64,000 bases of DNA, from positions 124,001 through 188,000 of the forward strand of contig NZ_CP139301.1 in the NCBI RefSeq assembly GCF_034092395.1, in the 5' to 3' direction. The notes under the pieces were generated by a model. The model did no database searches, was not told the origin of the DNA, and saw only the letters and a program-made list of their open reading frames with translations. Origin of the DNA: Prochlorococcus sp. MIT 1307 (lineage in GTDB: Bacteria; Cyanobacteriota; Cyanobacteriia; PCC-6307; Cyanobiaceae). The translations under genes were made by a program, and so were the position numbers. This document shows positions 25,338 to 27,160 of the stretch, in pieces; the stretch's first letter is position 1; each line of letters begins with the position of its first letter.

Positions 25338-25526
25338 ATGACAACTTTTCGAGACAGGTTAAACGCTCATTTGCCTATTACACTTCAATTCCTAAGCACT
25401 GCCTCACTTGTGGTCATAGCTTTGAGTTCAATTTGCGGGTCACAGTCTCTTAAAAAGCTTGTAGGCAATCATCATGTCAGTGGCTCGCATCAAATGCATA
25501 CGATTCAAATGAATAAGAGTCGGTAG
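25338..25526 (+). CDS. Small membrane-anchored hypothetical
   Basis: A 62-residue ORF: MTTFRDRLNAHLPITLQFLS, a hydrophobic segment ASLVVIALSSICG and a His/Ser-rich tail (NHHVSGSHQMHTIQMNKSR). The His-rich tail is unusual and could bind metal (speculation). Confidence 0.45.
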   Translation: MTTFRDRLNAHLPITLQFLSTASLVVIALSSICGSQSLKKLVGNHHVSGSHQMHTIQMNKSR

Positions 25527-25556
25527 GGCTTTGTTCTTGCTTTTCAATTAACCAAT

Positions 25557-25584
25557 AAAAAGCCCCCTGTGCAGACTCAGGGGG
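25557..25584 (-). terminator. Intrinsic terminator (minus strand)
   Basis: A perfect stem, CCCCCTG with CAGGGGG, and an 8-base loop. On the minus strand it is followed by CTTTTTATT. On the plus strand no T-run follows, so it ends transcription leftward. It is the 3' end of the candidate RNA at 25563-25800. Confidence 0.75.
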
Positions 25585-25800
25585 AGGGTAGGCAGTTCAA
25601 GCTGCTTATACCTGCTATAGCCATGGTGACAATTGATACACAGCAGGAATAAATACTTAATCAGGCAGGATCAGTCACTTATGAAAAGTGTTCTGATTTC
25701 GCCGTTCCTTCCGGATCAATTATCAGAACTGGGGTTGTGCCCCACACACAGCTTTCCATTTATGCTTGTTTAGGCAATGCTTAAGGCCCTGAGCGATTAA
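25563..25800 (-). ncRNA. Candidate structured non-coding RNA, about 0.24 kb
   Basis: On the minus strand a chain of adjacent hairpins runs into an intrinsic terminator. In plus coordinates they are 25730-25744 (TGGGG/CCCCA), 25690-25729 (GTTCTGAT/ATCAGAAC), 25676-25690 (CACTT/AAGTG), 25611-25647 (CCTGCT/AGCAGG), 25592-25605 (GCAG/CTGC) and 25563-25584 (terminator). There is no minus-strand gene between the terminator and the divergent desaturase gene, so the terminator needs a non-coding transcript. A possible -10 box lies near 25800. It matches no RNA class I know: it lacks tmRNA and RNase P signatures. The 5' end is a guess. Confidence 0.6.
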
Positions 25801-25969
25801 TTTTAAGGTTTTTTACGTCTGTTCTTTGGAGGAAGAATCGTTGTTCAAGACAAATAGTCGTCAAACCACCAATTTTTTTATAGCTTGAAACGATGAGGTC
25901 ATTAGCAACCCACAATCACAAGGTGGGGGGGACAACTTTTTGCCTCGATGAAAAGATCTTTACATTTTT

Positions 25970-27160
25970 GTGGACAGCCTAAATAATTCTTTCTCACAGC
26001 GACAGAACCTCAAAAGTGTTCTGCTTTCAGGTCTTAATGGTAAGGCCGCGGCAGTAAAAAAAGAGGATGTGCCTAGTCAATTAGATGTCAGAAATGTTGT
26101 GCCTGCAAAATGTTTCACTCGACATACGGTGATATCACTTGCTTATTTATTTCAATCTTTGGTTATTCAAGTCGTAATTATTTTAGTTGGTTTGGTTATT
26201 CCGCTTACATATTCAATGATTCCAGTGTGGATTCTCTATGCCGTAGTTTCTGGGACCTCTGCGATGGGCTTTTGGGTTATTGCTCATGAATGTGGGCATG
26301 GCGCATTTTCGGATAATAGAAGGCTTCAAACAATAGTTGGATATGTATTGCACTCTTTTCTTTTAGTCCCTTACTTCTCTTGGCAGCGTTCTCATGCTAT
26401 TCATCATAGATTTACCAATCACATAACAGATGGTGAGACGCACGTCCCATTAGTAATTGGGGGTAATGGAATCACTGAAAAACCTGGTGGTGAAAAGGAG
26501 GTAGAAGCGAGAAGAACTTTTGGCAAGGCTCAATATGGTGTACTTCAACTTGTAATGCACCTTTTGTTTGGTTGGCCTGCTTACTTGTTAGCGGGGAAAA
26601 CAGGTGGACCTCGATATGGGACTTCGAATCACTTCTGGCCGCGGGCACCTTTTTCTAGGAAGTTATGGCCCACAATTTGGGCTAAAAAAGTGTGGCTTTC
26701 AGACTTTGGAGTTGTCTTCGTTATTTTGGTACTTTTTCTTTGGGCTTCTAAGGCGGGTATAGCTTCACTTATTACGCTTTATATAGGTCCTTTATTGGTA
26801 GTGAATGTATGGTTGGTTATATATACATGGCTTCATCATACTGATACAGATGTTCCACATCTTTCTGGAACTGATTTCTCTTTTATGCGAGGTGCATTTT
26901 TGTCAATTGACCGTCCCTATGGAAGACTCTTAGATTTCTTGCACCATAGGATTGGATCAACACATGTTATACATCATATAGCACCTACTATTCCTCATTA
27001 TTACGCAAGAAAAGCTACTCTAGAAATAAAGAAAGCGTTCCCTAAGGTTTATCTTTATAACTCTACACCTATTCATAAAGCACTTTGGAATATTGCCTCT
27101 AATTGTACTGCGGTTAAGAAAGAAGAAGGAACTGCCAGATATTTTTGGCTAAGGCCTTAA
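25970..27160 (+). CDS. desA: Acyl-lipid desaturase, DesA (delta-12) type
   Basis: Introduces a second double bond into membrane-lipid acyl chains, using ferredoxin as electron donor. The three di-iron His boxes are in place: HECGH at 106-110, HAIHH at 142-146 and HVIHH at 332-336, the last followed by IAPTIPHYYARKA as in omega-6/omega-3 enzymes. The membrane helices lie at about 55-105 and 245-290. Delta-12 rather than omega-3 is inferred by resemblance. The start is GTG at 25970; no strong ribosome site is seen. Confidence 0.85.
   Translation: MDSLNNSFSQRQNLKSVLLSGLNGKAAAVKKEDVPSQLDVRNVVPAKCFTRHTVISLAYLFQSLVIQVVIILVGLVIPLTYSMIPVWILYAVVSGTSAMGFWVIAHECGHGAFSDNRRLQTIVGYVLHSFLLVPYFSWQRSHAIHHRFTNHITDGETHVPLVIGGNGITEKPGGEKEVEARRTFGKAQYGVLQLVMHLLFGWPAYLLAGKTGGPRYGTSNHFWPRAPFSRKLWPTIWAKKVWLSDFGVVFVILVLFLWASKAGIASLITLYIGPLLVVNVWLVIYTWLHHTDTDVPHLSGTDFSFMRGAFLSIDRPYGRLLDFLHHRIGSTHVIHHIAPTIPHYYARKATLEIKKAFPKVYLYNSTPIHKALWNIASNCTAVKKEEGTARYFWLRP

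Follow-up and report, generated by a model that had tools for sequence, protein, structure and literature searches.

A candidate small RNA gene beside a desA-like gene in Prochlorococcus, likely a diverged relative of a dispersed RNA family

The locus and its conserved core

The window, by which we mean the whole 64,000-nucleotide stretch of DNA analysed here, comes from a complete 2.03-Mb Prochlorococcus genome. The element we describe lies on the minus strand between two plus-strand genes (Table 1): a desA-like fatty acid desaturase gene, to which it is divergent and whose closest named relatives are found in the single-cell genomes AG-463-F15 and AG-409-O23 (74-75% amino-acid identity), and a gene for a conserved 62-aa protein that converges on it. 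The 62-aa protein has a hydrophobic segment but no Pfam family; its relatives in L014, L031, L044, and L004 (64-76% identity over 52-55 residues by tblastn) are encoded by genes that do not adjoin the RNA. A preliminary description of the locus had noted that no minus-strand gene lies upstream of the element, and we indeed find no minus-strand ORF of at least 60 aa between 25563 and 25970.

Table 1. Features of the window copy and its two neighbouring genes (positions in the window)
Feature	Position	Strand	Basis and remarks
Conserved core, ~105 nt (108-nt span)	25555..25662	-	blastn and covariance-model relatives in G002, G005, and G043; 5′ end ~25657-25662, 3′ end in T-run
GUAUU, 5′ sequence common with main family (there G[GA]GUAUUNNUUACGAG)	25652..25656	-	alignment A7; invariant in A3
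Predicted hairpin CCUGCUGUG...UAUAGCAGG	25611..25647	-	MFE of core; predicted for window copy alone
Predicted small hairpin GCAG-CUUGAA-CUGC, directly 5′ of terminator	25592..25605	-	individual folds (MFE or centroid)
Intrinsic terminator hairpin, stem covarying across family	25563..25584	-	sequence, alignments
Terminator loop AGUCUGCA	25570..25577	-	nearly invariant in family as RGUCUGCA
Terminator T-run	25557..25561	-	sequence
Possible upstream conserved stretch	25669..25691	-	common to L107 alone; promoter or 5′ extension, uncertain
Fatty acid desaturase gene (desA-like)	25970..27160	+	Pfam FA_desaturase, E 8e-27; divergent neighbour, outside RNA element
Conserved 62-aa small protein gene	25338..25526	+	tblastn relatives; converges on RNA, outside element

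The same description had proposed a candidate structured RNA of six hairpins extending over 25563-25800 and ending in a 7-bp G+C-rich terminator hairpin with a T-run. The terminator is present on the minus strand (CCCCCTG-AGTCTGCA-CAGGGGG, then CTTTTT; 25584..25557) and conserved in relatives, as is an element that ends in it, but only about half of the claimed length is conserved: relatives cover 25555-25662, and the hairpins farther upstream mostly lack them. Specifically, the 5′ half of 25563-25800 yielded no relative apart from one 26-nt match (G312, E=6e-4), and similarity to the close relatives described below ends upstream of 25662, save for a weak 22-nt match to L107 that hints at an extension to ~25691 (18/22 identical in a local alignment of 25669-25691, with 14/300 shuffles as good).

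Nor are six hairpins over 238 nt exceptional for DNA of this composition. Counting stems of at least 5 bp with loops of 3-10 that do not overlap, we find five local stems on the minus strand of 25563-25800, where dinucleotide shuffles average 3.5; five stems are reached by 53/200 shuffles, and the summed stem score by 31/200. The minus-strand fold of 25550-25805 (256 nt) has a z of -1.28, with 18 of 200 shuffles equal or better, and the plus strand of the same region folds better (z = -2.44); the single-strand fold is a long-range stem with small 3′ hairpins, and no string of hairpins appears. Both hairpin count and fold energy therefore lie within the range of the shuffles, so that the six hairpins alone are no evidence for a structured RNA. 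The conserved core by itself folds with moderate stability (z -1.98).

When the genus and family were searched at the DNA level, 25555-25660 matched genomes G002 and G043 with 74% identity; model R1 added a third close relative, in G005. Identity between the window core and these three Prochlorococcus loci is 80/99 for L107, 80/103 for L003, and 74/98 for L120, with shuffle z values of 8-12 and ~75-81% identity over ungapped positions; the loci are unlinked, each stands beside other genes, and none adjoins desA. A search of 379 genomes with model R3, made from four sequences (the window copy and these three loci), turned up no additional member of this close subgroup.

A larger dispersed family

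A second, larger group was reached through matches to the terminator. Members of this main family have G[GA]GUAUUNNUUACGAGNGC and, after a middle part that varies, GUUUAUAU followed by the same terminator with loop RGUCUGCA; a TATTTT-like box directly precedes the conserved GGG/GAG. Searched with model R1, 59 of 400 genomes of the taxonomic family contain main-family copies at E<=1e-3. Most g56 genomes carry one copy, g4, g11, g40, and others one or a few, and the genus of the window up to several; the window's own genome has a second, canonical copy at G000:C1:1693214-1693348. The g56 assemblies measure 1.0-2.0 Mb (complete ones 1.8-2.0 Mb). Genus g18, with near-complete genomes mostly of 1.5-1.8 Mb, has no family copy among the matches listed, and genera with complete genomes >2.1 Mb, for which the comparison used stricter filters, have only two weak matches among those listed, in G077 and G103 (both g30). 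From genome size we infer that g56 is the LLI/NATL clade and g18 the high-light clade, and the hosts of the family are apparently for the most part small-genome (1.6-2.0-Mb genera), low-light Prochlorococcus. Copies cluster within a few to tens of kb in G001:C1 36846-46415, G005:C8 23063-59307, and G002:C31 6706-9956, perhaps in genomic islands; a search for phage copies in IMG/VR gave 15 pattern matches, of which 0 scored with model R2.

In alignment A7 (37 distinct sequences), 7 of the 8 pairs of the terminator stem have compensatory changes, a number reached by 0/500 shuffles, and the 11 pairs of the model are 96.7% paired, where shuffles give 84.2% and sliding gives 37-49%. A7 was fitted to the structure tested and leans towards it; the terminator stem also covaries (6/8 pairs) in A3, a MAFFT alignment made without such fitting. 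The 3-bp GUA/UAC pairing hardly varies and is uninformative, and the loop RGUCUGCA is almost invariant across the family. The preliminary description had looked to compensatory changes in its stems as support; such covariation is strong in the terminator stem, and is demonstrated for that stem only. L107, L120, and L003 do not retain the strong hairpin predicted at 25647-25611. The small pre-terminator stem recurs in predicted folds at the same place in all three, in differing sequence, which is suggestive of a structure common to the four subgroup copies.

Four observations bear on whether the window copy belongs to the main family. Specifically, i) model R2, built from the main family only and without the window subgroup, gives the window copy a modest 27 bits (E 0.004 in 64 kb), and the close relatives 34.6 bits (L003, 3e-4), 30.9 bits (L107, 2e-3), and a weak score (L120, E 0.19); ii) the next matches of model R3 after the subgroup are main-family loci in G034, G045, G020, G063, G019, and G010 (E 2e-4 to 6e-3), the terminator supplying much of each cross-model score; iii) the exact 14-mer of the hairpin tip, CTGRGTCTGCACAG, occurs twice in the 2.03-Mb genome, both times in this RNA; and iv) of the 5′ segment G[GA]GUAUUNNUUACGAG the window copy keeps GUAUU, at a distance from the terminator similar to that in the canonical copy, but not UUACGAG, and it also lacks the main-family -10-like box at the aligned position. 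We considered and rejected the idea that the hairpin is a generic terminator, since its tip, searched in the genus, proved specific to this RNA. Because the 14-mer is limited to the two copies in this genome and GUAUU is similarly spaced in both, the window copy is, as far as sequence can tell, likely homologous to the main family with a diverged 5′ part.

Family copies differ in what follows them. In five main-family copies of the window's own genus (L103, L104, L105, L110, and L116), the U-tract leads directly into the ATG of different small genes whose products have a common signal-peptide-like start, MR(R/H/C)LL; the L110 and L116 loci are truncated at contig ends. It looks in these copies as if a cassette of promoter, leader, and signal peptide were moving onto unrelated genes. 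Further copies stand alone or before small membrane-protein ORFs (L117, L114, and L124), where the start of a conserved membrane protein of 46-48 aa (M[N/S]D-LL-PILGL...KKRWVRPE) is no more than a few nucleotides from the end of the RNA match; the L117 copy of this protein has no Pfam or NCBIfam match.

L103, L104, and L105 also have a separate, conserved and mobile leader of ~180 nt located 5′ of the RNA, which in other genera abuts the ATG directly. This leader is multi-copy and 70-90% conserved in many Prochlorococcus genera (L213-L230, L103, L104, and L105; alignment A8), and in the window genome it lies on the minus strand of G000:C1, directly upstream of 1693320. Its 3′ end is TTATTTTATG or TTATTCTTATG, the last ATG being the start of the downstream gene; the genes behind it differ (MRRLLL.. 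secreted proteins, a DUF1330 protein), and no match to it was found in Rfam.

Proposed nature of the element

We favor the view that an intergenic sRNA gene of ~105 nt stands here on its own, running on the minus strand from 25662 to 25555, and that it is a diverged copy of the dispersed Prochlorococcus family; we put the probability of this reading at about one half. An sRNA family is suggested by the relatives at unlinked loci, by the covarying terminator with its near-invariant loop, and by the second, canonical copy. Transcription would begin at a promoter just upstream, with a start near 25657, and would end at the terminator, releasing an RNA of ~105 nt. The RNA would probably act in trans, by base pairing, and the exposed near-invariant loop RGUCUGCA would be the likeliest contact site; the 5′ segment (GGGUAUUNNUUACGAG in the main family, altered in the window copy) might provide a second. 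Perfect complements of the 5′ motif in the genus show no excess over reversed-pattern controls, and the terminator itself is the one place in the 64-kb window with a complement to the loop. Since UUACGAG and the -10-like box have both been lost in the window copy, either its targets have changed or the copy is decaying, and decay is possible.

Indeed, the main rival, which we consider unlikely, is that the locus holds a silent sRNA copy that was duplicated here and is now decaying, the terminator being kept while the promoter and 5′ motif erode. The missing UUACGAG and -10-like box are what such decay would leave, as is the upstream minus strand, where we found no good -35/-10 pair or other promoter-like site; but the terminator and loop are intact, and the subgroup keeps a block of its own, GUAUCAAUUG..GCUAUA, at ~75-81% in G002, G005, and G043, unlike a sequence in neutral decay. 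Improbable, in our judgment, is a recurring terminator cassette that makes no sRNA and halts antisense transcripts heading for the 62-aa gene, into which the minus strand runs. The terminator is by far the best-conserved part of the element, as such a cassette would have it, but a second conserved block (GUAUUNNUUAC.. or GUAUUUAUU..GUAUCAAUUG) is found 5′ of the terminator at a near-constant distance in both main family and subgroup, and the hairpin is not a generic terminator in the genus. Finally, the proposal that the whole 238-nt stretch of six hairpins is a new RNA regulating desA under cold or light is largely refuted and very improbable, for despite its position divergent to the desaturase gene the RNA is present at 0 of 80 desA loci of other Prochlorococcus (searched within fetched flanks of at most 4 kb; the best match has E 0.08, and all matches are AT-rich), so that the link with desA appears accidental, its relatives adjoin other genes, its 5′ half has no relatives beyond one short match, its hairpins are at chance level, and nothing was found in support of a cold- or light-linked role.

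Returning to the sRNA gene that we favor, we wish to stress that the outcome is in part corrective, the RNA being shorter than first thought and not a regulator of desA. A conserved multi-locus family that is missing from Rfam is worth annotating, and the near-invariant terminator loop offers a concrete candidate contact site. With few protein regulators at its disposal, Prochlorococcus may leave much of its regulation to sRNAs. A bolder proposal, to which we would give rather long odds, is that these RNAs form an undescribed mobile low-light sRNA family in which the terminator loop is the targeting element, and that in the own-genus copies lying between the leader and the start codons of genes for small secreted proteins the terminator serves as a transcriptional gate.

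Comparison with described RNAs

In keeping with the preliminary description, which had set the element apart from tmRNA, RNase P RNA, and 6S RNA, no family of Rfam 15 (these three and Cyano-1/Yfr2 included) reaches its gathering cut-off in the 25563-25800 region, at the window copy, or at main-family loci; permissive thresholds gave chance matches only. One of the candidates rejected was NsiR1 (RF02399), which likewise has a short 5′ part ahead of a C-rich/G-rich terminator; the overlap scores 15.6 bits (E 3), far under the gathering score of 39 bits, and is a chance-level terminator resemblance. The Yfr2 family (Cyano-1, RF01701), described as multi-copy Prochlorococcus sRNAs with a conserved motif (PMC6778093), is also multi-copy, but its model has no match at this RNA. 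A true Cyano-1 (Yfr2-family) RNA lies ~1 kb from the second sRNA copy (L105 2558-2624 (+); G000:C1 about 1694271-1694337).

Homology to an sRNA already described in Prochlorococcus, either Yfr103 or one of Yfr106-108 of NATL2A, would be compatible with the sRNA gene that we favor and concerns only the name of the family; we regard it as conceivable, if doubtful. Yfr103 is an ncRNA of low-light Prochlorococcus, reported as multi-copy and from SS120, NATL1A/2A, and MIT9303/9313, with a published homologue list that includes no high-light strain (PMC5069720), and the family described here is likewise multi-copy in its own genus, occurs in 1.6-2.0-Mb genera, and has no g18 copy among the matches listed. 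Length and spread in Synechococcus differ, however: the Yfr103 paralogues of Synechococcus CC9605 are 290-328 nt long and occur in many marine Synechococcus (PMC5069720), whereas our family is ~100 nt long with two weak g30 matches among those listed, the comparison being one of published descriptions. The ~180-nt leader could itself be Yfr103. Yfr106, Yfr107, and Yfr108 are reported as NATL2A sRNAs with low-light-ecotype homologues (PMC7368042), and the present family, apparently of low-light Prochlorococcus for the most part, would resemble them in this respect. Whatever its name, the element would be filed as a trans-encoded sRNA candidate and not as a desA regulator.
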